Below are positions 9,677 to 38,374 of a stretch of 38,374 nucleotides of DNA, piece after piece. Position numbers and translations under genes: made by a program. This stretch comes from a virus, in IMG/VR virus record IMGVR_UViG_3300042560_001209, positions 1-38,374 of that record, one strand, 5' to 3'. Positions within the stretch are counted from its first letter, which is position 1, and each line of letters starts with the position of its first letter. Under the pieces are notes generated by a model. That model was not told the DNA's origin. It saw only the letters and a list, made by a program, of their open reading frames with translations, and made no database searches.

Positions 9677-11530
9677 TCATCTTACACTACGCATAACCAC
9701 AATAGCCGTACCCTCAAAATCGTTCGTTCGATGGGCGTTCACCAACTGGGCTATCCGCATCTGCACATTCTCAACCACCACCGCAAACGTCTCCTCGTTC
9801 TCCTGATAGGTCACCACCCGAGGGTTCTCCACCAAATCACGCAAATAGCCGAGTTCACGGTCCACATCCTGCCAGTATTCCCGTCCGTTGATAGACAGCT
9901 TGTGGTGCATGATGAGGGGGACGGAAAAGATTTGGGATCGTAGCGGGGCGGCATAGGCACGAGCCATCCAACGGGTAAGGGTTGGACCGGTGCTGGTAAC
10001 GGCGTCACGGTTGAGGGTCACTTTGATTTCGGCTTCGAACACCTTGTCTTCCAACCCGTCAAACGTCTTCTCCTTCACATTCGCCGTAGTCAGGGTGGCA
10101 AAGTCAAAGAAGTCTCCGCCGTCTGATGCCACCGACATGGTGACCGAACCCTTCAACGGCAAGCAACGCAAGTCAAGTTTGGGGATGAACTTGGCGTCCG
10201 GTACACCCCAACGGTAGATACCTGATCGTAGATAGCCCGAGGCGACCAGGTTCGTGGCGTGGGGTGTGAACACGCCGACACCTGAGACGGTGAAGAGTGG
10301 CTTGTTTTGAAACTCGTGGATTGACTGCACCGTACCTTGTGCGGTGGCCATCAGATCGGTTGCGTATGCCGGCTGGTTTGGGGAGATGAATACGGAGATG
10401 TCCATGCGTCCGATGCCTGTGGAGGTGGAGTCAAAGTTGGACCATGAGAAGTAGACGTATTGACCGATGCCTGCCATCGCTCCGACTGCTGCACCTGTTT
10501 GTACGAGTGGTCCGACGGTGAGGTTGCCGTCGGTGTCCGACGAGCAGAAACGAAATCCTGTGGTCGTACCCAGGATGATGTAGCCGAGGTAGCCGTAGAT
10601 GGATTGGACGATTTCTCCGAGGGGTAGTTCGGCGGCTGCGGTTGGGATGGCAAGTGCTGTGCCATCGGCTTGGATTTGCGTCTTGTAGATAATGCTCGTA
10701 TTGCCTGCGTAGCCCGCGGCATAGATGTGGGTTTGTCCAGCAGCGAAACCGACCCACGTCCAGTTCGTGTTCGGATGCGTATAGAGCGCAGTCGGGTTGT
10801 TGGCTGATGAACCTGCCGCGGTGGTGATGTTCCAAATCTTGCGCTTATCGGTACCCTGCCCAGCGACCATCAGACGCCCCCTGACGTAAGCCAGGACTCC
10901 AGCCTCAATACCGGTAATGTACGCCGAAGAAGTAGAGATGCCAGCGTTCGTCTGGTCAATGTCGCCGTTGGCGTACGAGTAGAACACGTTGTAGCCGTCA
11001 GACGTAATCGAATACAGGTTTGATGTTTTGGTACCTGTCACCGTTGTGACCGTCACGAAATCGCTGGTGTACTTGACGCTTTGTCCGTCTGTCCCATAGA
11101 GGCGACCGTCAGCAGTCACTGCGTACAGATTGGTTCCGGAAGTCGGGTACACATTGGACGTGTCGCTCAGCAACGACAGACGACCCTTGGTCCACGGGTC
11201 CACACCCTTGCTTGAATAGAACCTGTACGCCTCAGCGTCAGCCGTATCCGAATACTGTTGCCCCGCACCGTAATGCCACGATGACTGCGAACGACGCCAC
11301 AAACCCTGCGGGTTCAACGCCGACTCGCCAGGTTCCGTTGACTGGTCAACCGAATCACGAACACGCGCATCAAACTGGCGACTAAACTCATTCGCCTTCA
11401 TATCCAACATGTATGGGCGCCCGTTGATCGCAACAGGGAACACATCAGGAACGAGCTGTGTCGCACCCGTACCGGTGTAGAAACTTGACGCAGGTTTGAA
11501 AGCGTCTTTGAAACGCGTCAGCGTAGCCAT
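9677..11530 (-). CDS. Tail-tube B-like structural protein, probable beta-propeller
   Basis: The 617-residue product is beta-rich, with repeated strands of the form LYAVTADGRLYGT, YSITSDGYNVFYSYANG and HIYAAGYAGNTSIIYKT, typical of a propeller. Its N-terminus has DVFPVAINGRPYMLD and a conserved-looking SALNPQGLWRRSQSSWHYG block (about residues 72-90). In short-tailed phages the nozzle protein (gp12 in T7) is large and beta-propeller-like and is encoded after the gatekeeper protein, which fits the position here after the 294-residue gene. Homology to that family cannot be proved by eye. AGGAAGTAGCC precedes the ATG. Confidence 0.6.
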   Translation of the reverse strand: MATLTRFKDAFKPASSFYTGTGATQLVPDVFPVAINGRPYMLDMKANEFSRQFDARVRDSVDQSTEPGESALNPQGLWRRSQSSWHYGAGQQYSDTADAEAYRFYSSKGVDPWTKGRLSLLSDTSNVYPTSGTNLYAVTADGRLYGTDGQSVKYTSDFVTVTTVTGTKTSNLYSITSDGYNVFYSYANGDIDQTNAGISTSSAYITGIEAGVLAYVRGRLMVAGQGTDKRKIWNITTAAGSSANNPTALYTHPNTNWTWVGFAAGQTHIYAAGYAGNTSIIYKTQIQADGTALAIPTAAAELPLGEIVQSIYGYLGYIILGTTTGFRFCSSDTDGNLTVGPLVQTGAAVGAMAGIGQYVYFSWSNFDSTSTGIGRMDISVFISPNQPAYATDLMATAQGTVQSIHEFQNKPLFTVSGVGVFTPHATNLVASGYLRSGIYRWGVPDAKFIPKLDLRCLPLKGSVTMSVASDGGDFFDFATLTTANVKEKTFDGLEDKVFEAEIKVTLNRDAVTSTGPTLTRWMARAYAAPLRSQIFSVPLIMHHKLSINGREYWQDVDRELGYLRDLVENPRVVTYQENEETFAVVVENVQMRIAQLVNAHRTNDFEGTAIVVMRSVR

Positions 11531-17598: not shown

Positions 17599-18570
17599 TT
17601 ACGCGCCGAGCGAGGACGCCGACTCAATGCGACGCAGCGAAGCCTCGCGGAATCGTGCGTAACCGCCGAGCCAGTACCAGCCGACCGGCTGGAAGCGCTG
17701 GAGGACGTCCACCACTGGACCGCGCACAACGCGTGGGAACGCGCCGTTGCCATCCACGATGCTGTGCGCCTTGGCGAGTGCCTGACGGCCTGCGATGTGC
17801 GTGCAGTACACGTCCACCGTTGCCGACGAACCCGTCGAAGAACCAGAGCCATCCGAGGCGTTCTCAAAAATCTTCGCACGTGGCGTCTCAATGAAACGCA
17901 CACCTTCGAAGGCTCCGATTTCGCCGTTGTAGATGTTTGCTGGATCGCTGTACACGTGTGGGTCACGCCACGAAGCCACGCCAGTCTCCGAACGAAGGTC
18001 GTAGCTCACGTCGGGGTGAATGTAACCCATGTACATTCCGTTGAACGAAACGGCGTTTGCCTTGCGGAGAGCAGCAACAACGCGACGAACATCGTTCGCC
18101 TCGATCTTGTCTTCCGGCTGAACCGTCGCACGCGACGTTGGGGTGCCAGTTCCGCCGCCACCGTACACCACGTGGGTGCCAGCCGACAACACATCACGGA
18201 TCACTCCGTCGATGCTGATACCGGCGTTGTAGCCGACGAGGTTTGCGGCTGCCGCATCCACGTCAAGGAACGACGTGCCACGCAGCTTGGCGGTCGTGTT
18301 GACCGCGTTGCCGTATTCCTCAAGGGTCACTTCAATCTGGGAGTCACCCATCACCACTGGGGTGACGTCGGTGTCCTCAGTCAAGGTGCTGGTCTTCTCG
18401 CTCAGGTCATTGAAAATGGTGAACTTCACCGATGATCCTGGCATTGCTTGTGCGACTGGCATCACGTCTGCAACCGCGTCGAACAAAAGTTCGCTGCGGA
18501 GTGCGAAGTACGCAATCCTGTCAAATGCAACCTGGTCTGTGAGCAGGTTGCTCGTTTGTGTCTTGGTCAT
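17599..18570 (-). CDS. Major capsid protein, N4-gp56 type
   Basis: The 323-residue product looks like the N4-gp56 major capsid family: MTKTQTSNLLTDQVAFDRIAY start, GSSVKFTIFNDLSEKTSTL, LRGTSFLDVDAAAANLVGYN, then MYMGYIHPDVSYDLRSETG and ASWRDPHVYSDP, and a C-terminal PVGWYWLGGYARFREASLRRI. The I-H-P-x-x-x-x-D-L phrase is a hallmark. This subunit would build the icosahedral head. It directly follows the scaffold gene; AGGAA is close to the ATG and GGAG lies further upstream. Terminator and stem-loop follow, consistent with a separately controlled, highly expressed gene. Confidence 0.82.
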   Translation of the reverse strand: MTKTQTSNLLTDQVAFDRIAYFALRSELLFDAVADVMPVAQAMPGSSVKFTIFNDLSEKTSTLTEDTDVTPVVMGDSQIEVTLEEYGNAVNTTAKLRGTSFLDVDAAAANLVGYNAGISIDGVIRDVLSAGTHVVYGGGGTGTPTSRATVQPEDKIEANDVRRVVAALRKANAVSFNGMYMGYIHPDVSYDLRSETGVASWRDPHVYSDPANIYNGEIGAFEGVRFIETPRAKIFENASDGSGSSTGSSATVDVYCTHIAGRQALAKAHSIVDGNGAFPRVVRGPVVDVLQRFQPVGWYWLGGYARFREASLRRIESASSLGA

Positions 18571-29599: not shown

Positions 29600-31576
29600 T
29601 CATATCCAGGTTGGGCGCCACATGCGTGGTGGACGCTTCACCGGACCGAGTTGAGGCATGTGGAGTTCTGCGAACCAGTGTGCCATTACGAGGTCGGTTC
29701 CGTTCTTTTTGTTGCGAGTCCAACTGGACATTTCCTCAATGAAGGCGAGCGTCTTCCAGTTTTCTCTCATCGTCGGCAAGCGAACCTGCCCTGCTCTCCA
29801 CAGGGGTGGCAGTAGTGCTTCGACACCTAGGTTTTCGTCTAGTTTGTTGCGGGAGGTCGTATGAGGAACAACCATGACACCGTGGAGGGCTTGCCACTTG
29901 CGAACGAAGTCGTGAGCCAACAGGAAGCGTTGGGCGGCGTTGACTTCCACAATCCAATGGGAGATCGGGTAGCCCATCTCGAACGACCTGTTCTGCCAAA
30001 CCTCCATTATGCCGCCGTACTGTCGGCTAGACGTATCAAAACCAAGTAGCTCCTCAGCAGTCAACTTGGTTCGTTCAACGTCTATCAGGTAGCGCAGGTT
30101 GGTGTTGGGTTGGAATAGCCACCATTGGACTGCCCAAAAGTTTGTGGGGCTGGGGTCTACGGATGCAATTGAGATGATTGGGGGTTCTAGGCCGCCTGGG
30201 ATGTAGCCGGCTTTGCGGTCACCGTCAATGCACCCTGGGTATAGTACGCCGTCGTTGCCCATGCCGCCTGTTGCCCATACGCGTTCAATCAGGTATTGGC
30301 CTTGTGCCATGTCTTCTTGCTGGTAGATGACTTGGAACTTGGCAGGCGTCGAATGTTTCAGGTACGAGAGGTCTTTCCATGACAAGCGGTATGGGTCGAG
30401 GAGTGGTCCGTTGGGCCATGGTGGTGCCGTAGTCTTACGAGATTCTCTGCCGGTGTCCAGTTCGTCGTAGTAAGCCTTGTAAATGAAATGGGTGTACTTG
30501 GATTTTTTTTCTGGTTCTTTGACGTCGGAAATGTCGGTGACGTCGGATCCGTCGTACGCGTCAGGGTCCTCCTCGTAAGTCACTTTGGACAAACAGTGGG
30601 CGTAGAGATCACCTGGCCCGAGACGCTGCCCGATGACAGCGAGCAAGCCACCTGGGTCGACGCGTGCCTCAGCGACGGTATCCCACCGTTCCAGAAGTTT
30701 GTCGCGGGCAACGGACTCTTTGGCGTTCTCTGGGGTTGCCACGTCGTCGAACAAACAGAGGTCGGCACGATGTCCGATGAACTCTGAGTCAATACCATAC
30801 GACGACACCGTAGGTTCCTTGTTATCCAAACCAGATAAGTCTTCTTGTTCGACGATGAACTCCTCGGCACGCCACAACGCACCGCTTGATGACGGTTTGA
30901 AACGCCCATAGTCGATAGAGAGGCAGCCTTCGGCGTTGAGCGCCAACCCTTTCTCCACAAGAATCGGATCAGGGCTGAGAGGGAATGGTCGTTCCAACGT
31001 TTCCCTGATACGACGGCTGTACATCTTCGCCAACGTTTGCGTAGCCGAACCAATCAGCACACGAATCTTACGATTCCGTACAATCATCCAACACGCAAAG
31101 TCGTGAAACAATGTCGACTTGCCTGCCCCTGGGGGACAGTTGATGCAAATGAACTCTTTCTCCGGTGATTCCAACATTTGCACAATCTTGTACGCAGCAT
31201 CTACCTGCCACGGGCTAGGAACCCTCCCCAAGTATCGTCGACGGAAGTAATCAAAATCATCCCAACCACGCTGCGCCTCCGGACTAAGACGCTCATAAGG
31301 GATAACAGGTGGCAGATCAGCGACATCCATCGCATGTTTCCACGCATCATTCTGCACACCACCCTGCTTTTTGCGAACCTGCCCGACTTCTACTTCAGCA
31401 AGTTTGATTTCGGCAGTAGCTTTACGTCGTTTTGCTTCCCACTGGGATGCAGTGTTGGGGTGGATGCCAGCAATTTTCGCCGCATCCTGAATACTCATCC
31501 CTGATGCTCTGGATTGCCAGTAGCGGGCTACGTCTTGTGGCGGGATTTGCCGTCTCCCCGAACGACCAGCAGGCAT
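29600..31576 (-). CDS. Terminase large subunit with N-terminal HTH
   Basis: The 658-residue product carries a Walker A motif CPPGAGKS (147-154), a Walker B LCLFDD (273-278) and a C-terminal nuclease domain starting IISIASVDPSP with D474 and later IVEVNAAQRFLL. It packages phage DNA, using ATP, and cuts it. Residues 13-50 read as a helix-turn-helix (DVARYWQSRASGMSIQ, then DAAKIAGIHPNTASQWEAKR), which is more typical of a small terminase subunit. Length is above the usual 450-600 because of this part. The start joins the previous stop as TAATG. Confidence 0.9.
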   Translation of the reverse strand: MPAGRSGRRQIPPQDVARYWQSRASGMSIQDAAKIAGIHPNTASQWEAKRRKATAEIKLAEVEVGQVRKKQGGVQNDAWKHAMDVADLPPVIPYERLSPEAQRGWDDFDYFRRRYLGRVPSPWQVDAAYKIVQMLESPEKEFICINCPPGAGKSTLFHDFACWMIVRNRKIRVLIGSATQTLAKMYSRRIRETLERPFPLSPDPILVEKGLALNAEGCLSIDYGRFKPSSSGALWRAEEFIVEQEDLSGLDNKEPTVSSYGIDSEFIGHRADLCLFDDVATPENAKESVARDKLLERWDTVAEARVDPGGLLAVIGQRLGPGDLYAHCLSKVTYEEDPDAYDGSDVTDISDVKEPEKKSKYTHFIYKAYYDELDTGRESRKTTAPPWPNGPLLDPYRLSWKDLSYLKHSTPAKFQVIYQQEDMAQGQYLIERVWATGGMGNDGVLYPGCIDGDRKAGYIPGGLEPPIISIASVDPSPTNFWAVQWWLFQPNTNLRYLIDVERTKLTAEELLGFDTSSRQYGGIMEVWQNRSFEMGYPISHWIVEVNAAQRFLLAHDFVRKWQALHGVMVVPHTTSRNKLDENLGVEALLPPLWRAGQVRLPTMRENWKTLAFIEEMSSWTRNKKNGTDLVMAHWFAELHMPQLGPVKRPPRMWRPTWI

Positions 31577-31944
31577 TATTTACCTCGAAGAATCGAGCCG
31601 CCCCCGCCAGCACCACGACCACCCTGACCACGACCCAAACCCTGCGCACCACCACCGCCACGCATCGGAGAGTTGATTACTTTGCGCAACGAATCCAACG
31701 ACGACTTGGTACCAGCCTCAACCGTACGACCATCCAACAACTGATTCAAACGATTCGAGTGCGCAATACGAACACGCTCCAACTTCGGTACCTGATAACG
31801 CAAACGAGCATCAGCCAACCGGCTACCAGCCATCTCCGACTTGAACTCATTCTTCGCAACCTTCGCAGACAAACTTTCAAACCGGCGAGCCAAACGCTCC
31901 AACTCACGATCAGGAGGAACAGGAACATTACGTTTGTGTGCCAT
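31576..31944 (-). CDS. Small basic protein before terminase, 122 residues (small-subunit candidate)
   Basis: The product begins MAHKRNVPVPPDRELERLAR, has a long Arg/Lys-rich helix region (about 15-80, including LADARLRYQVPKLERVRIAH), then a Gly-rich tail (RGGGGAQGLGRGQGG). It is the first gene of the late operon and directly precedes the large terminase, the usual place of a small terminase subunit, but no clear HTH is visible. ATG 31942-31944 is taken because of good reading downstream; the longer frame upstream has little support and only a weak AGG lies before this ATG. Confidence 0.6.
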   Translation of the reverse strand: MAHKRNVPVPPDRELERLARRFESLSAKVAKNEFKSEMAGSRLADARLRYQVPKLERVRIAHSNRLNQLLDGRTVEAGTKSSLDSLRKVINSPMRGGGGAQGLGRGQGGRGAGGGGSILRGK

Positions 31945-31966
31945 CGTGCCTGCTAGCATACACGCT

Positions 31967-32022
31967 GCCGGTCGGCGTTGATCGCATATGGGTTGTGCGA
32001 CGGGTTGTTGGCGTCGACCGGC
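31967..32022. repeat. Inverted repeat, 8 bp arms, before the late operon
   Basis: GCCGGTCG (31967-31974) and CGACCGGC (32015-32022) are exact inverted copies 40 bases apart, ending 23 bases before the first late gene start. The arms could bind a dimeric regulator or a terminase. Confidence 0.45.
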
Positions 32023-32488
32023 ACCTGCTACACTCAACACGCCACGTCGAGAGACGCGCACAACACCCAAAGAATACGGACCCTAAACGATTACATTCCT
32101 CCTCACCACAACTATCGGTGAGGGCAGCATGGTTAGATCGCACGGGACAAGTGGCCTGAAAAGGGGACCGATGGTGGTCGCCTTCTTTCGGTATCAAGAC
32201 AGACGGGTTCAGGCGTAAAACAGAACTTGGGGGGGCTAAAGAAATGCCTGACGCCTCGCATACGCTCGTTGTCCTAGCGCCCTCACATACGTTCGGTTGC
32301 TACCACTGGTGCTCACACGACCTCGATACCAGGCGCAGCTCACCGCAGCACAAAAGATAACATTCACCCCCCACCTCCACCCCTCCCCTCCGTGCATACA
32401 CGGCGCGCCACGTGACCCAACCACAAAAATGACCACACACAAAACCACTAATACATACTCTCTGGCGCCCTGGCCTCGGCATACCCTC

Positions 32489-32512
32489 GGGGTGTGGGGT
32501 GGTGGGGTGGGG
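32489..32512 (+). other. Four-tetrad G-quadruplex motif
   Basis: The plus strand has four GGGG runs at 32489-32492, 32496-32499, 32504-32507 and 32509-32512, with loops TGT, TGGT and T. Four G runs of four with very short loops should fold into a very stable quadruplex. Late and early transcripts are read from the minus strand, so the plus strand is their template. Confidence 0.8.
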
Positions 32513-32684
32513 CATGGTGCCGGCCTCTCGTGTTCGGTGTGGCCGGTGTCAACGCGGGCGACATTGCTCGACGCGAGCGGGCTTCGCGACACCGGCATTG
32601 CGACAAGTAGGTGTCGACGGTAGTTGGGTAGCGGGCTGTTGGCGTCGCCTACTGCGTGGGGCTGTTGGTGGCTGGATACGGCAA

Positions 32685-32710
32685 GGCCACCGGCGTTGCC
32701 ACCGGTGGCC
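32685..32710 (-). terminator. Strong hairpin after the early block (terminator-like, no T run)
   Basis: GGCCACCGG (32702-32710 on the minus strand) pairs with CCGGTGGCC (32685-32693), a 9-bp all-strong stem with an 8-base loop, 26 bases after the clamp stop. No T run follows, but C-rich, G-poor RNA just before it (CACAACACCCAAACCCCCACG) could serve factor-dependent ending. It likely separates early from late transcription. Confidence 0.55.
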
Positions 32711-32735
32711 TGCGTGGGGGTTTGGGTGTTGTGGG

Positions 32736-33383
32736 TTAGTGGCGTCTGCGTGGCATGATCAGTACGCGGGCGGTGAGTGTGTCGGTGTTGAGGGTGTAGA
32801 CAAGTGGCCGGCGTGGGTCGGGTTTGTCGTCGGTGTGGGCCATTGTTGCGGCTTCGACGTGATCGGTGCCAAGGTGCTTGGCTAGTTTGGCGAGGCGGGC
32901 GAGCATGGGGGCGCCGATCAAGTGTGGGGCGAGGCTGTTTCGTTGGTCTTGCCATAGTCCGTAGGTGTTGGGCCATGTGTGTTCGCCGGCTGTTGGTCCG
33001 GTGTTGGTGTGTTGGCCGGTGGTGAGTGTCCAGGCTTCGGCGGTGAGGGTGAGCGTGGCCTCGCCGTGGTGCTTGGTTTCGGTGCGCTTGGGCATGGCTG
33101 CGAGGATTGCGGCCGGGTCGATGAGAGTCGGATCGGTGAGCGTGTGTGGCAGCTCGGCGGTGATTTCGACTAGCTCGGTGCTGTTGGTGGCCTCGAATCG
33201 TAGTGCTGTGGGTGCTGGTGTGGTGGCGTCGGTCTGCTCGACGATGATCGGTGTCAGGCGTGCGAGGGTGAGCGCGGCACGGTGCTTGTCCGGTGACGTG
33301 TACTCATCGAGGGCCGTGAGAATGGCTCTGAGTGTTTCTGGTGGTGCCGTGAGGCTGGTGGTGGTTTGGGTTTGGGTGTTCAT
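32736..33383 (-). CDS. Compact sliding-clamp-like (DnaN-like) protein
   Basis: The 215-residue product reads like two clamp domains: a first helix (PPETLRAILTALDEY) and strands with TALRFEATNSTELVEIT, IDPAAILAAMPKR, LTLTAEAWTLTTG, then W-P-N-T-Y and an APMLARLAKLAKHL helix, ending in RVLIMPRRRH. The final strand and M-P-x-R tail match the end of bacterial beta clamps. It is much shorter than the 365-residue three-domain clamp and closer to the roughly 228-residue phage T4 type. Thr is unusually frequent. ATG 33381-33383 follows AGGAGAAACC. Tethering a polymerase is the likely role; identification is by pattern only. Confidence 0.5.
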   Translation of the reverse strand: MNTQTQTTTSLTAPPETLRAILTALDEYTSPDKHRAALTLARLTPIIVEQTDATTPAPTALRFEATNSTELVEITAELPHTLTDPTLIDPAAILAAMPKRTETKHHGEATLTLTAEAWTLTTGQHTNTGPTAGEHTWPNTYGLWQDQRNSLAPHLIGAPMLARLAKLAKHLGTDHVEAATMAHTDDKPDPRRPLVYTLNTDTLTARVLIMPRRRH

Positions 33384-33396
33384 GGGTTGGTTTCTC

Positions 33397-33576
33397 CTAT
33401 TGGTTGTTGGTTGTTGTTCGTGGCCGGTTGGCCGCGATTTTGTGGGCGCGTCGGCGGTTGTTGCGTTGGCGTTCTTGGTCGATGCCGGCGTCTTTGCCGA
33501 CGAAGTAGGCCGCGATAATGAGCGCCGACATGACAAAGACGCCGGCAAGGTTCATTACGTAAATGTCGGGGTTCAT
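33397..33576 (-). CDS. Small single-span membrane protein, 59 residues
   Basis: Starting MNPDIYVMNLAGVFVMSALI, the product has one hydrophobic span (about residues 8-26, ending AAYFVG) and a basic tail (ERQRNNRRRAHKIAANRPR). Its ATG (33574-33576) overlaps the upstream stop as ATGA. The orientation by charge would put the tail in the cytoplasm. Unknown function; it could alter the host envelope early in infection. Confidence 0.65.
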   Translation of the reverse strand: MNPDIYVMNLAGVFVMSALIIAAYFVGKDAGIDQERQRNNRRRAHKIAANRPRTTTNNQ

Positions 33577-34025
33577 TGTGGGCCCATTTCGTCGGCGAGG
33601 TCGTCGAGGGCTGCGGCGAGAGCTGGTGCCCATACGCGCACGCTGTCCACCGGTTGGCCGGCGTCGTAGGTGTTGATTTCGATGATTTGGCCGTCGGTGC
33701 TGTCCCGGATTATTTCGCAACGTGGGCCGCCACATGTGCGCAAGATTTCGACGCGGGTTTTTTTGTAGTCATCGCGGCTGCTGTTTGTGGCGAGCCATGT
33801 CACTTGGAGCGCGTAGTTGTTGAGGTAGTCCGCGAGAATGTCGGCGGGATCATAGTCTTGGGGTAGTTCTAGCTCGTTGAGGGCGTCGCGGTAGTTGGTG
33901 TGTTCCTCGTCGGCCTCGTCGATGTCGTTGGGGTCGAAGTGCTGCGGGCGGCCTTCGAGCAGCGTCTCAACGGCGAGGACCTCGCCGGCGATTATTTGCG
34001 AATAGGTGCGGGTATCGGTGTTCAT
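33573..34025 (-). CDS. Acidic early hypothetical protein, 150 residues
   Basis: The product is acidic, with EGRPQHFDPNDIDEADEEHT, LPQDYDPADILADYLNNYAL and a C-terminal beta-like part (RTCGGPRCEIIRDSTDG, then VRVWAPALAAALDDLADE). I do not recognise the family; small acidic proteins of early phage operons can mimic DNA and block host enzymes, which is only a thought here. AAGGAAACCAACC precedes the ATG. Confidence 0.65.
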   Translation of the reverse strand: MNTDTRTYSQIIAGEVLAVETLLEGRPQHFDPNDIDEADEEHTNYRDALNELELPQDYDPADILADYLNNYALQVTWLATNSSRDDYKKTRVEILRTCGGPRCEIIRDSTDGQIIEINTYDAGQPVDSVRVWAPALAAALDDLADEMGPQ

Positions 34026-34047
34026 GGTTGGTTTCCTTTCGGGTTGG

Positions 34048-34287
34048 TTATTGGTTTCGGTGTAGGTGTTCTATGGTAAAACGCATGTCGGCTCTGGCCG
34101 CTTGTAGTTTGTGGCAGTAGCTCATTAGTAGTTGTTCGGTTTGGTCCATGAGGCGCACGGCTTCGGTGAGGGAGGTTGAGGTGCCGAAGTAGGCCAGGGC
34201 GTTTATGGTTTCTACTAGGTTTTTTAGTTGGGTTCGGTCTTTTTGTAGTTGTTTTTCGTTTATTAGTTGGTGTCTGTTGTTTGTCAT
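34048..34287 (-). CDS. Helical early protein, 79 residues, probably leaderless
   Basis: The product (MTNNRHQLINEKQLQKDRTQ ...) is entirely helical with two heptad-like stretches, LKNLVETINALAYF and LTEAVRLMDQTEQLLMSY. The ATG (34285-34287) lies six bases after a -10 box, so the message probably begins at or next to the start codon; no ribosome site is visible. A TTG further upstream would extend the frame but falls in the -35 zone of a distal box. Confidence 0.65.
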   Translation of the reverse strand: MTNNRHQLINEKQLQKDRTQLKNLVETINALAYFGTSTSLTEAVRLMDQTEQLLMSYCHKLQAARADMRFTIEHLHRNQ

Positions 34288-34293
34288 AAGGTT

Positions 34294-34323
34294 ATCGTAG
34301 GGTGTGGTTGGGCCACTTGTCAA
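34294..34323 (-). promoter_or_regulatory. Early promoter 1
   Basis: Minus strand TTGACA (34318-34323), 18-base spacer, TACGAT (34294-34299). A second CTTGACAA copy begins exactly 27 bases upstream (TTGACA 34345-34350). Early promoter 2 has the same spacer and the same upstream copy. Confidence 0.65.
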
Positions 34324-34336
34324 GCGTTGCCGGCGT

Positions 34337-34423
34337 TTATTTTTTGTCAAGCATGGCGAGGACGTCGGCGCGGGTGCCGTGGGTCAGATCGAGCGTCGAG
34401 GACGTCGGCGGGAATAGTGCCAC
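34337..34423 (-). CDS. Possible 28-residue protein before early promoter 1
   Basis: From GTG 34421-34423 the frame reads MALFPPTSSTLDLTHGTRAD and ends VLAMLDKK. The ribosome site is weak. It is listed because the preceding gene leaves an otherwise empty 190 bases and the end (LDKK, TAA) resembles that of the 36-residue gene before early promoter 2 (LDEK, TAA). It may equally be chance. Confidence 0.25.
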   Translation of the reverse strand: MALFPPTSSTLDLTHGTRADVLAMLDKK

Positions 34424-34527
34424 GATCACGCCATGATCGGCGGCTCATACGCGAGCCGCGTCAAGCGTGGAGAATGGGCCGAATGACATCGGACCGCCGC
34501 CGGCCCGAGGATCCGTTTCGATGCAGG

Positions 34528-34737
34528 TTAGTCGGTGTCGGTATCGGTTGCGCCGCGAGCGAGTCGGCGTCGCTGGTGGTAGCGGTGCCACGCCAGGTAG
34601 CTGACGGCGAGTGAGCCAACGAGCCTTGCGGCCCACACTCCGTAGCCGTCGGTAGGGCTACCGGTGGTGATACCGAGTATGAGGGTGGCGGCGAGCGCGG
34701 TAGCCCACGCGTCGGTGAACGTCGTCCTACCGTTCAT
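34528..34737 (-). CDS. Two-span small membrane protein, 69 residues
   Basis: The product starts MNGRTTFTDAWATALAATLI, has two hydrophobic segments (about residues 10-25 and 32-48) divided by a Gly/Ser/Asp loop, and ends in a basic then acidic tail (HQRRRLARGATDTDTD). It overlaps the upstream gene by 11 bases. Unknown early membrane function. Confidence 0.65.
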   Translation of the reverse strand: MNGRTTFTDAWATALAATLILGITTGSPTDGYGVWAARLVGSLAVSYLAWHRYHQRRRLARGATDTDTD

Positions 34738-34894
34738 CGCGGCCCGTAATCTGTACGTCGTCGTAGCCTTCGTCGATGTATCCGGCGGCGAGAGTGTGCG
34801 CGTCGGACCATGACAGTAGGTAGTCGTTCACTTCGATGTCACCTACCCACACCGAGTAGGTGCGGGGTGTTGCGTGGATACCTTCGGGGTTCAT
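34727..34894 (-). CDS. Small conserved phage protein, 55 residues
   Basis: The product (MNPEGIHATPRTYSVWVGDI ...) continues VNDYLLSWSDAHTLAAGYIDEGYDDVQI. The pattern V-W-V-G-x-x-E-V-N-D-Y, a helix of the form ...A-x-x-L-A, then G-Y-D-D-V is frequent in early operons of actinophages. ATG 34892-34894 overlaps the zinc-binding gene's stop as ATGA. Function unknown. Confidence 0.65.
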   Translation of the reverse strand: MNPEGIHATPRTYSVWVGDIEVNDYLLSWSDAHTLAAGYIDEGYDDVQITGRDER

Positions 34895-35076
34895 GAGCGC
34901 TCCTGCCATTGGCAGTTTGAGCAACGGCCACGTCTCATTGAGCCTCGGCGTCGTTTGCCGGTGACGCGTGCGAGGGTGAGGCACGGGTCGTCGGTGGCGT
35001 GGATCGGGCATAGGAGTGTTGTCCTGGTGCCGTCGGTGTTGGTTGCGCACGCGCATTGGGCGAGGGTGGTTTCCAT
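34891..35076 (-). CDS. Small Cys-rich, probable zinc-binding protein, 61 residues
   Basis: The product has CAC near the start (C8, C10), LLCPIHATDDPC (C23, H26, C32) and CSNCQW close to the end (C52, C55), with an Arg-rich stretch between (GKRRRGSMRRGR). The pairs suit one or two zinc sites. The ATG has AAGGAGACAACTA upstream and overlaps the preceding stop as TAATG. A nucleic-acid-binding role is likely from charge, not shown. Confidence 0.65.
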   Translation of the reverse strand: METTLAQCACATNTDGTRTTLLCPIHATDDPCLTLARVTGKRRRGSMRRGRCSNCQWQERS

Positions 35077-35282
35077 TAGTTGTCTCCTTCGGTGAAGTAA
35101 TCGGAATAAATGTTGTCATTGACCATGTTTGGGTTGGCAGTCTCCGTGACGCACACGTACAGGTCGTTGTCAACGCGGCGTACCACTACGGTAAATAGCT
35201 CGTCGATGTAGCCTTTGCGTTGTAGGCCGACGCTAATACACTGGCCACCGCCGATCAACTTGTGTGTTGCTTTCAGTTTCAT
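35076..35282 (-). CDS. Hypothetical early protein, 68 residues
   Basis: The product is small and beta-like: MKLKATHKLIGGGQCISVGL, then YIDELFTVVVRRVDNDLYVCV and an acidic end (SDYFTEGDN). It is enclosed by TAATG overlaps on both sides, so it is almost certainly translated. Unknown function. Confidence 0.65.
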   Translation of the reverse strand: MKLKATHKLIGGGQCISVGLQRKGYIDELFTVVVRRVDNDLYVCVTETANPNMVNDNIYSDYFTEGDN

Positions 35283-35896
35283 TAGTTGCCGCCTTCGCCG
35301 TTGTCGTCGGTCCAGAACGGTGTTGGCGCGAACTCGCCTTCGTCGGTGAACCGGCGGGTTAGTTCGTAGATGTCGCGGTATGCGTCAAGCACGTAGCTGG
35401 CACTTGTGTAGCCGTCGCATTGCTGTTGGGCGAACCGGTACAACTTGCGGTTGAGTTTTTGGATCATGTCGGCTGTTGCGTCGAATAGTTCGCCGCCGTA
35501 GATTTCCTGCTCGTCGGCGGTGCTTACGTATTCGGGGTAACTGTGGTTGCCGCGACCCGTCGTGACGACCCTGGCGTGCTCGACTCCTTCGGGCCATGCG
35601 AGGTTTGGTAGTTCTGATCGGCGCAAGTATCCCTCGATGGCTGCGAAGTCCCCTTGCCCGTATGCCACCTGCCAATAGATACGCACGCTATGGTTCTCGT
35701 ACAGTTCTTTGTTGCTGACGACTCCGTTGTTGGTGCCGGTTCCGAGTTCGACCAGGTAGGCGTTGAGGTCCTCGGACACCATGTCGGAGTCGAGTGACTC
35801 CCACGCTTCCTCGGTGAGTTTCTCCAACGCTCGTTTCTGTGCGTCGGGTGGTAGCTCGTCGTAGGTGTAGACGTCGCGGGTTGCTGTTACTTTCAT
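35282..35896 (-). CDS. Phage protein of the 'antitoxin of TA stability system'-like family
   Basis: The 204-residue product begins MKVTATRDVYTYDELPPDAQ and has KRALEKLTEEAWESLDSD, then VRIYWQVAYGQGDFAAIEGY. The order (Y-x-x-x-E-L-x-x-x-A-x-x-x-A near the start, then a strand with x-Y-x-Q-G-D-x-A-x-x-E-G) is that of a widespread phage family often named as antitoxin-like, though no toxin partner is visible here. AAGGAGAAACAACCC precedes the ATG. It is the first gene behind early promoter 2. Confidence 0.6.
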   Translation of the reverse strand: MKVTATRDVYTYDELPPDAQKRALEKLTEEAWESLDSDMVSEDLNAYLVELGTGTNNGVVSNKELYENHSVRIYWQVAYGQGDFAAIEGYLRRSELPNLAWPEGVEHARVVTTGRGNHSYPEYVSTADEQEIYGGELFDATADMIQKLNRKLYRFAQQQCDGYTSASYVLDAYRDIYELTRRFTDEGEFAPTPFWTDDNGEGGN

Positions 35897-35943
35897 GGGT
35901 TGTTTCTCCTTGGGTTGTTCCCGTTCGTGACGGGCTACCACTC

Positions 35944-35973
35944 AGGATAAGGGTATCCTTGGGGTGTTGTCAA
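35944..35973 (-). promoter_or_regulatory. Early promoter 2
   Basis: Minus strand TTGACA (35968-35973), 18-base spacer, TATCCT (35944-35949). A TTGACG copy lies 27 bases upstream (35995-36000), inside the end of the 36-residue gene. The leader to the next ATG is about 40 bases and includes a strong ribosome site. Confidence 0.65.
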
Positions 35974-35986
35974 GTACCCTGCCGAT

Positions 35987-36097
35987 TTACTTTTCGTCAA
36001 GCCCCAACTCACGCCGCCACTCCCCCACGATCACCGCCAGCTCCTCATCGGACCACCATTCCAACGGCAACTCCACCTGGCGAGGATCGTCACTCAC
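35987..36097 (-). CDS. Tiny acidic protein, 36 residues, GTG start
   Basis: From GTG 36095-36097, overlapping the zinc-ribbon stop as GTGA, the product reads MSDDPRQVELPLEWWSDEEL and ends AVIVGEWRRELGLDEK. The overlap and the well-formed acidic/amphipathic sequence argue for a real gene; W-W-S-D-E-E-L looks like a protein-interaction helix. Function unknown. Confidence 0.55.
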   Translation of the reverse strand: MSDDPRQVELPLEWWSDEELAVIVGEWRRELGLDEK

Positions 36098-36228
36098 TTC
36101 GCCACCATCACCACCGGCGTCGAGCCATGCGCCTGCGGATTACGACAGACCGGCGGCGTCGAAGGCCGCACGTGAAGCACCACCGTCTGACCACAACGCG
36201 GGCATCGGTAGCTGGTAGTTCTACGCAT
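36094..36228 (-). CDS. Zinc-ribbon mini-protein, 44 residues
   Basis: The product is MRRTTSYRCPRCGQTVVLHV, then RPSTPPVCRNPQAHGSTPVV. C9 and C12 (CPRC) with C28 and H34 form a likely zinc site. Its ATG (36226-36228) joins the methyltransferase stop as TGATG. Small zinc ribbons of this kind follow DNA-modification or regulatory genes in actinophages. Function unknown. Confidence 0.7.
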   Translation of the reverse strand: MRRTTSYRCPRCGQTVVLHVRPSTPPVCRNPQAHGSTPVVMVAK

Positions 36229-38066
36229 CAGTCGGTAGCACCTGCGTCGGTAGCGGTAGCGGTATCGGTAGCGATAAGGATTTCACCGATCCATTGTGCG
36301 ACGGGTGAGGCTACGCCGTTGCCGCATTGTTTGTATCGGTGGGTGTCTGATTGTGGTGTGCCGTCGGCTTTGGTTGCTGTCCAGTTGTCTGGCCAGCCCA
36401 TGAGCCGTTCGCATTCAAGTGGGGTGAGGCGACGCACCGCCATTGTTGGTGTGAGGACTGTTGGTTCGATGCCGTTCATTTGTGATGTGAGTGTTTGACT
36501 TGTGCCTTCTTGGTATCCGATACCGCCTGCACCAGCACCTTGACCAGCTTTGAATCCTGCTGCCTCAATGGGTTGGGCAATGAAGTCTGATGAGTCTCGT
36601 CCGATTCTGATGGTTACTGATACATCGTCTTCGTAGAGTCGCTGGTTGTATCCGTCGTATTGGACAACTCCGTGGCGGTCTGTTGAGGTGAGGCTGAACA
36701 TCGGGTCGTTGGGGTGGCTGATGCCTGCGCCTTGTGGCCCGTTGTGGTCTTGTCTGCCAATCATGTTGCCTTGCAATCCGTAGGCGATGGCTTGTGCACC
36801 TGTTTGGTCGATGGTGTACGCAGGTGTGCCATCGTCTGCTACGCCGATGCCGTTCTGGTTCTTTTCCATTTCGCGTCCGTCTTGTATGGGGAAGGCGACG
36901 TAGGTTTGTTGGTTGGTGCCTGGTTCTGCGCTGAGTGCGACTGCCTTGTCGTCGAGTTCTCTTACTTCTGCTCGCTGATTAGTAGCGAAGGCGATGGATG
37001 GTGATTGTTGGGATGCTTTGAGTGGTGGTGCTTTGTCTTCGTACACTTCGGCGTTTGAGCCGAATTGGGTGTCAAAGCTGTAGTTGACGGATTGTGCGAC
37101 CATTGGTGTGTTGCCTCCACCGGTGCCCATTTTGCTGGTGAGTGTTTGGGTGATGCCGTCTTCTGCGATACGTGCAGCGTCACGATATGAGTTCTCAAAC
37201 ACGATGGCTGTGGTGGTGCGTGTGTCGCCTTGGTCGAAGGCGTTGAGTGTGGGGTTGGGTTGGTTGGCGACCCATGTTTCGTCGTCGGTTGCTGTTTGAG
37301 GCCGCTTCGATTTGGTGAACGGTTCAATAACCATGTGTCCGTTGTTGACATCTTGATTTACGACGGTTGATTTGTGATAGAGGCTGGCTCCGATGGTGTT
37401 TGCGATGTCACTACCGCTTCCAAAGCTTGCTGCAGTCTCGCCGGTAACTGTTTGCCTCGTCGTGTGGCTCGTCGAAGGATGCCACTGCACGCCTTCGCTG
37501 ACAGGTAGTAGCGGGTCGGGACATCGTGTTGCGGTTGCAGTATCAAAGATAGAGATGAGGAACACTCGTCGACGCCGTTGTGGGACTCCGAAGTATTGTG
37601 CATCCAGGACTCGCCATTCTTGGACCAGCGCCCCTGCTTCAGCCATTTCGTTGAGGATGACCCCGAAGTCAGCGCCTCGGTTGGAGTTGAGTGCTCCGTA
37701 GACGTTTTCCCAAATAGAGATTCTTGGGTATTCATTGTTGGTTTCCTTTCGTAGTTCTTTGATGATTCGTACACCTTCATGGAATAGTCCTGAGCGTGAC
37801 CCTTCTAGGCCTGCTCGTTTGCCTGCTACGGAGAGGTCTTGGCATGGTGATCCCCACGCAACGACGTCTATGACGGGTGCGTGGGCGAGGATGTGTTTGC
37901 CGGTGAGGGTGGAGATGTCTCCCCATCGTGGAACGTGAGGCCAATGTTTTTCGAGGATGTTGGTGGCGTGTTTGTCCCATTCGCATTGGAACACCGTTTC
38001 CATACCAGCGGCCTCTAAGCCGAGGTCGAATCCGCCGACACCTGAGAACAGTGATAACACTTTCAT
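36228..38066 (-). CDS. Cytosine-C5 DNA methyltransferase with long repeated insertion
   Basis: The 612-residue product has all main C5-methyltransferase motifs: SAM-binding LFSGVGGFDLGLEAAG (6-21), catalytic GSPCQDLS with C75 (72-79), ENV (120-122), QRRRRVFLIS (163-172) and the C-terminal GNGVASPVAQWIG (582-594). It transfers methyl to cytosine C5, probably to shield phage DNA from restriction. Between motif VIII and the C-terminal part lies about 350 residues (190-540), far longer than a normal target-recognition domain, with some nine degenerate repeats such as QTLTSKMGTGGGNTPMV and QTLTSQMNGIEPTVL. No partner endonuclease is seen, so it is an orphan. The start joins the previous stop as TAATG, with AAGGGGAAAT upstream. 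Confidence 0.9.
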   Translation of the reverse strand: MKVLSLFSGVGGFDLGLEAAGMETVFQCEWDKHATNILEKHWPHVPRWGDISTLTGKHILAHAPVIDVVAWGSPCQDLSVAGKRAGLEGSRSGLFHEGVRIIKELRKETNNEYPRISIWENVYGALNSNRGADFGVILNEMAEAGALVQEWRVLDAQYFGVPQRRRRVFLISIFDTATATRCPDPLLPVSEGVQWHPSTSHTTRQTVTGETAASFGSGSDIANTIGASLYHKSTVVNQDVNNGHMVIEPFTKSKRPQTATDDETWVANQPNPTLNAFDQGDTRTTTAIVFENSYRDAARIAEDGITQTLTSKMGTGGGNTPMVAQSVNYSFDTQFGSNAEVYEDKAPPLKASQQSPSIAFATNQRAEVRELDDKAVALSAEPGTNQQTYVAFPIQDGREMEKNQNGIGVADDGTPAYTIDQTGAQAIAYGLQGNMIGRQDHNGPQGAGISHPNDPMFSLTSTDRHGVVQYDGYNQRLYEDDVSVTIRIGRDSSDFIAQPIEAAGFKAGQGAGAGGIGYQEGTSQTLTSQMNGIEPTVLTPTMAVRRLTPLECERLMGWPDNWTATKADGTPQSDTHRYKQCGNGVASPVAQWIGEILIATDTATATDAGATD

Positions 38067-38317
38067 TATTTCCCCTTCGGTTTAGGTTTCTTTTTCTTCC
38101 AGTTGTTGTCTGCTGATGTCAGTTTGCCCATACGGTATGCGTGGCAAGGGCAACCGCAAGTGTCATGTATCTGTTGAGGGAGTGGTGTCAGTGCTCTCTC
38201 GACCGTCCCGCAGTGGAGGCAGGTTCGCCAAATCCCACCATTGGTCGCCCCAAATGGAGGCTGGGTGCAGTCCCATTCGGACTGCAACTTTGTCTGCTTG
38301 CGGTTCGGGGATGCCAT
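38066..38317 (-). CDS. Cys-rich protein overlapping the HTH gene, 83 residues
   Basis: The product has WRTCLHCG (C33, C36) and HDTCGCPCHAYRMG (C54, C56, plus His), a likely zinc site, and ends in a Lys-rich tail (WKKKKPKPKGK). Its 5' part shares 155 bases with the end of the HTH gene in another frame, unusual for this genome. A later start is possible but would need a non-ATG codon. The stop joins the methyltransferase start as TAATG. Function unknown. Confidence 0.6.
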   Translation of the reverse strand: MASPNRKQTKLQSEWDCTQPPFGATNGGIWRTCLHCGTVERALTPLPQQIHDTCGCPCHAYRMGKLTSADNNWKKKKPKPKGK

Positions 38318-38374
38318 GTTTTTTCCAGTTCCAAATAGTTCCGGAGTTCACTTGTGCAACTTCCGCCAAATCTT
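38163..38374 (-). CDS. Partial HTH DNA-binding protein, N-terminus outside the window
   Basis: The visible 69 residues open DLAEVAQVNSGTIWNWKKHG, a helix-turn-helix, then IPEPQADKVAVRMGLHPASI and WGDQWWDLA. The A-D-K-V-A-V-R-M-G-L-H-P-x-x-I-W phrase recurs in small actinophage HTH proteins. The frame is open at the right edge, so the real start lies beyond it. The last 20 residues, rich in Thr/Ser/Asp, overlap the next gene. Likely a transcription regulator. Confidence 0.65.
   Translation of the reverse strand, partial: DLAEVAQVNSGTIWNWKKHGIPEPQADKVAVRMGLHPASIWGDQWWDLANLPPLRDGRESTDTTPSTDT

Follow-up and report, generated by a model that had tools for sequence, protein, structure and literature searches.

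Does a short sequence that stands at the same distance upstream of two phage promoters, P1 and P2, serve a regulator as half of a paired operator, as a first-pass annotation of this locus had proposed, or does it belong to the promoters themselves? The DNA analysed, referred to here as the window, is an IMG/VR viral record of 38,374 bp with a G+C content of 54.8%, the minus strand of which codes for terminase, portal and major capsid genes. The capsid protein has ~45% identity to the capsid of Streptomyces phages, and related phages encode WhiB, a marker for actinobacterial hosts (PMC6802176); the source of the window is an uncultured actinobacterial phage. The phage collection contained no close relatives, at the DNA level, of the region or of the element.

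Two promoters and their upstream box

In both promoters, as had been described, TTGACA and a -10 box are separated by 18 bp. Both lie on the minus strand. On that strand P1 reads CTTGACAAAAAATAAACGCCGGCAACG followed by CTTGACA, with 18 bp from TTGACA to TACGAT, and P2 reads CTTGACGAAAAGTAAATCGGCAGGGTA followed by CTTGACA, with 18 bp from TTGACA to TATCCT. A second box placed exactly 27 bp upstream was correctly recognised, CTTGACRAAAARTAAA being found at both promoters with 27 bp from CTTGAC to CTTGAC, as was its location in the last codons of small frames ending Leu-Asp-x-Lys-stop (LDKK-stop at P1 and LDEK-stop at P2). The features are as follows.

34048..34287, minus strand: 79-aa gene behind P1, without a confident family
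34294..34299, minus strand: P1 -10 box TACGAT; RNA start predicted at 34287
34318..34323, minus strand: P1 -35 box TTGACA, from a promoter scan
34336..34351, minus strand: P1 upstream box CTTGACAAAAAATAAA, predicted at -64 to -49; 15/16 identical in G001, G002, G006 and G007
34337..34489, minus strand: small-gene remnant with an in-frame TGA, the last codons of which (LDKK-stop) hold the P1 box
35282..35896, minus strand: 204-aa gene behind P2, phrog_5162 (a family of unassigned function), with ribosome site AAGGAG
35920..35934, minus strand: hairpin where the 5' end of the P2 transcript is predicted
35944..35949, minus strand: P2 -10 box TATCCT; RNA start predicted near 35937
35968..35973, minus strand: P2 -35 box TTGACA, from a promoter scan
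35986..36001, minus strand: P2 upstream box CTTGACGAAAAGTAAA, predicted at -64 to -49; 16/16 in G001, G002 and G007
35987..36097, minus strand: 36-aa gene ending GLDEK-stop, its last codons forming the P2 box
36094..36228, minus strand: 44-aa zinc-ribbon-like gene (weak matches only), overlapping the start of the 36-aa gene
38163..38372, minus strand: HTH-like protein, cut by the contig end; a related protein occurs in group 2 (see below)

Because the predicted RNA start at 34287 is the A of an ATG, the P1 mRNA is probably leaderless in the window phage. The P2 transcript has a predicted 5' leader with the ribosome site AAGGAG, and the P2 leader of the related phage G007 carries a hairpin of like form and different sequence. 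In 30000-38374 the scan returned no sigma70-like sites other than P1 and P2, and this count does not exceed that of shuffled sequence (2 versus a shuffle mean of 3.0). A tandem-promoter arrangement was considered and rejected, as a convincing -10 box is absent 16-18 bp after the upstream TTGAC.

The resemblance between the two boxes is hard to attribute to chance. They are identical at 14 of 16 bases at the same offset, and such sharing within 60 bp was seen in only 7 of 200,000 random pairs of window positions; the shared 16-mer is thus above chance expectation. The window holds these two sites in total, with no other copy within two mismatches, and its other two promoter-like sites lack the box. 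The part of the earlier proposal that set chance aside is therefore upheld, whereas the part that made the boxes a paired operator is not, since the distances vary and CTTGAC is not truly repeated.

Two further observations concern the neighbouring genes. The small gene before P1 is interrupted by the in-frame TGA at 34445-34447 (minus strand), and G001 and G002 have an uninterrupted homologous frame. Upstream of P2, between two small zinc-ribbon-like genes, lies a gene for a 612-aa DNA methyltransferase (36228-38066, minus strand); the matching interval of G001 is only ~0.5 kb, so the region upstream of P2 looks like a swap site.

Conservation in close and distant phages

The first-pass annotation had tied its reading to conservation of the upstream copies in relatives, and the pair does recur, in at least four related IMG/VR phages. 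Scans of IMG/VR found it in G001, G002, G006, G007 and G008 (group 1), the last of which seems to be another record of the phage represented by G001. The paired layout is present at P1 in G001, G002, G006 and G007 and at P2 in G001, G002 and G007. The period at P1 is 27 bp throughout the group, with a -35 box of TTTGACA in G001, and at P2 it is 27 bp except in G007, where it is 26 bp. Over five phages, 15 of the 16 columns of the P1 box are invariant, versus 28 of the preceding 48 nt; between G007 and G001 the corresponding identities are 16/16 and 34/48. At P2 the values are 16/16 in the box and 43/48 in the preceding nucleotides, in phages too similar for a telling contrast.

What follows P1 is less constant. 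The first gene encodes the 79-aa protein in the window and a member of a 150-aa family in G001 and G007; the P1 operon of G002 and G006 begins with an antirestriction gene of the ArdA type. Such genes are usually expressed first. G003-G005 possess the gene behind P2 and lack the P1 and P2 promoter modules; in G003 and G004 the window's other two promoter-like sites are nearly unchanged.

Relaxed scans revealed a second group of phages, G009-G014, the proteins of which mostly share 30-50% identity with those of group 1, some tail-region proteins being more similar. Several group 2 promoters carry the box 24 bp before the -35 box, in four types, CTTGACAAAAAGTAAA (G2a), GTTGACGAAAAGTAAA (G2b), GCTGACAAAAAGTAAA (G2c) and CTTTACAAAAAATCAA (G2d), and many others are without it. 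The G2a box lies outside any gene, after the stop codon of an upstream gene that differs between G009 and G010, the G2b box lies across the TGA of a zinc-ribbon gene, and the G2c box forms the codons ADKK-stop. Related A-tracts at 26 bp occur at two promoters of G015 (47% G+C), one with TTGAC and the other with TTTGC. Because the box keeps roughly the same position in distantly related phages while the reading frame around it changes, it is a real part of the promoter. Its sequence, conservation, position and independence of reading frame are observed properties.

Two details of group 2 are recorded here in their own right. G009 has promoter copies at 17763 and 18295 that are identical from TTGACA through the -10 box and beyond, with the box only at 17763. 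In L080, at ~10109-10160, a short hairpin is predicted immediately before an ATG, with the ribosome site AAAGGAG in its loop.

As a control, TTGAC was scrambled to CAGTT, and a scan of the same collection then returned 18 stretches, all at or below 48% G+C; with the real box, A+T-rich contigs yielded a comparable background, and both G+C-rich groups (55-60% G+C) were recovered as well. The analysed contigs were also searched for the decamer RAAAARTMAA without a requirement for TTGAC. In G+C-rich contigs, TGAC or TTAC precedes the decamer in all six promoter contexts and in none of four non-promoter contexts, a test that is only partly independent because group 2 itself was found by a search requiring TTGAC. 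An A+T-rich phage with an exact pair, L019, was set aside as a probable chance match. The 23 matches in a scan of bacterial genomes, mostly Bacillota/Clostridia with A-rich promoters and periods of 22-25, include no Actinomycetota record and are read as a background of strong A-rich promoters. Two MAGs of Oscillospiraceae and Clostridia (L095, L102) both have TTGACGAAAAATAAA 22 bp before a -35 box, preceding what seems to be the same gene start, and could be another lineage with this layout.

Candidate readings of the box

The P1/P2 box may well be a conserved upstream activating element, most likely a UP-like site for the C-terminal domain (CTD) of the host RNA polymerase alpha subunit, a proposal that we hold at about even confidence. 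P1 and P2 would then be host-type (sigma70/sigmaA) early promoters with a ~15-bp upstream activating element, TTKACRAAAARTAAA, the A-tract of which, at about -58 to -46, would be read by the alpha CTD, and the TTGAC at the left edge of the box may extend the alpha contact or serve a helper protein. The genes before P1 and P2 would end Leu-Asp-Glu/Lys-Lys because the element overlaps their last codons. We infer from the sequences compared here an early role for the promoters, activation by the box and its recognition by alpha.

Several observations are consistent with a UP-like site. The A-tract is the most constant part of the box, four A's being invariant in eight box types, and it falls within the UP zone (about -38 to -59), with RAAAARTAAA at -58 to -49 in P1 and P2 and at ~-55 to -46 in group 2. 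Either UP subsite can work alone, and phage Mu Pm needs -57 to -52 for UP contact (PMC4390567); mycobacterial RNA polymerase is stimulated ~threefold by a UP element in vitro (PMC5511352). The 3-bp variation in distance would be easier to reconcile with an alpha CTD on a flexible tether than with a rigid operator pair. Nor do regulators track the box: G003-G005, which are box-less, also encode WhiB and the HTH protein, and a search for a regulator gene confined to the box-bearing phages of both groups found none. An A-rich proximal subsite next to the -35 box is absent: P1, P2 and most of group 2 have G+C-rich DNA in the adjoining 8-11 bp. The box would be at most a distal or partial UP element.

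Other features speak against a UP-like site. TTGAC is better preserved than a pure UP element would require, with its C present in 8/8 and its G in 6/8 of the box types; the stretch from -48 to -37, as a rule the stronger of the UP subsites, is rich in G+C; and many group 2 promoters dispense with the box. Common descent could also keep a box without function, yet divergence is seen both in the 8-11 bp that separate the box from the -35 and in the -35/-10 spacers.

Because TTGAC is kept and the stretch next to the -35 box is G+C-rich, a site for a dimeric regulator of phage or host origin stays a serious though less likely alternative. The box would here form an imperfect inverted repeat, TTKAC-N5-RTMAA, around an A-rich centre, from which an activator or modulator would work at ~-55. 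In three of the eight box types the arms TTGAC/GTAAA agree at 4/5 as an inverted repeat; in the others they do so only at 2-3/5, without compensating changes. In group 2, a box at L080:1784 lies between two divergent promoters and on the other strand reads TTGATTTTTTGTAAAG, keeping the arms with T rather than A in the centre, and TGAC or TTAC stands before every promoter-linked A-tract in the G+C-rich contigs. Against these points are the variable distance to the -35 box (24, 26 or 27) and the lack of a regulator gene that marks out the box-bearing phages of both groups. It is possible, though doubtful, that the box is the site of a sequence-specific activator which defines an early regulon in at least two actinobacterial phage groups.

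The paired operator, in which one regulator binds a direct repeat of CTTGAC over the -35 box and 27 bp upstream, is unlikely. Both TTGAC copies are there in most cases, and every group 1 promoter except one has the 27-bp period; however, the phase is not fixed as had been supposed, with periods of 26 at P2 of G007 and in G015 and of 24 in group 2. Nor is CTTGAC a true direct repeat, since the upstream copy may be CTGAC, TTTAC or TTTGC, or the -35 copy TTTGAC (TTTGACA at P1 of G001), while the A-tract stays. The downstream copy lacks an A-tract, equals the -35 consensus and is simply the -35 box. The string that had been suggested for scanning, CTTGACR-N20-TTGACA, is off by one and gave zero matches, as N20 precedes CTTGACA. 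A search of ten related contigs, which are possibly incomplete, for a tyrosine integrase found none, and no clear repressor came to light; regulators common to both groups also occur in box-less relatives. Given the variable distance, the lack of a true repeat and of a regulator that tracks the box, and the negative search for a tyrosine integrase in these contigs, an upstream promoter element fits better.

That the box was kept merely through the copying of promoter segments, with no function of its own, is quite improbable. The promoter cores of G009 were visibly copied, being identical from TTGACA through the -10 box at 17763 and 18295, but the second copy is without the box, so that boxes and cores move separately, and flanks diverge where the box does not. 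Least probable is a coding artefact, two small proteins that happen to end Leu-Asp-Glu-Lys and so share codons, which had been allowed as a partial explanation: the box coincides with the end of an open frame at P1, P2 and G2c, but group 2 has it outside genes or in another frame, which excludes codon sharing as a general cause and already largely refutes this reading, and such C-termini (frames of at least 60 codons, 16 contigs) occur only at box promoters.

Significance and comparison with known systems

To our knowledge, almost no promoters have been mapped in phages that infect uncultured Actinobacteria, and UP elements have hardly been documented in this phylum. An element of 15 bp found at presumed early promoters of two distant phage groups offers a handle for finding early genes, which here include an ArdA-like antirestriction gene and small proteins of unassigned family, and would allow alpha-CTD use outside mycobacteria to be tested simply in vitro.

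The Cluster A stoperator consensus has a GTCAAG core, and the operators and stoperators of these mycobacteriophages appear to resemble the present site in lying over an early -35 box and in carrying, on the opposite strand, that core. They are far more numerous, with 26 sites in TipsytheTRex (PMC9283540) versus two in the window. They differ further in that a tyrosine integrase was not found here and in that the upstream site runs into an A-tract. In WhiB7-type promoters an AT-rich stretch directly adjoins the -35 box; they share A-rich DNA upstream of the -35 box, and the related phages encode WhiB, but here the A-rich part is 8-11 bp further up, the adjoining bases are G+C-rich, and WhiB also occurs in phages without the box. 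The operator of the phage BPs repressor is likewise a two-part recognition site with a variable spacer at early phage promoters (PMC4557955), yet its half sites are 12-bp palindromes and its PR operator lies between -10 and -35, neither of which holds here. The UP elements of rrnB P1 and phage Mu Pm lack the conserved TTGAC flank and the G+C-rich gap by the -35 box of the present candidate element; what the two have in common is an A-tract upstream of the -35 box at ~-46 to -58 that is optional and tolerant of distance.
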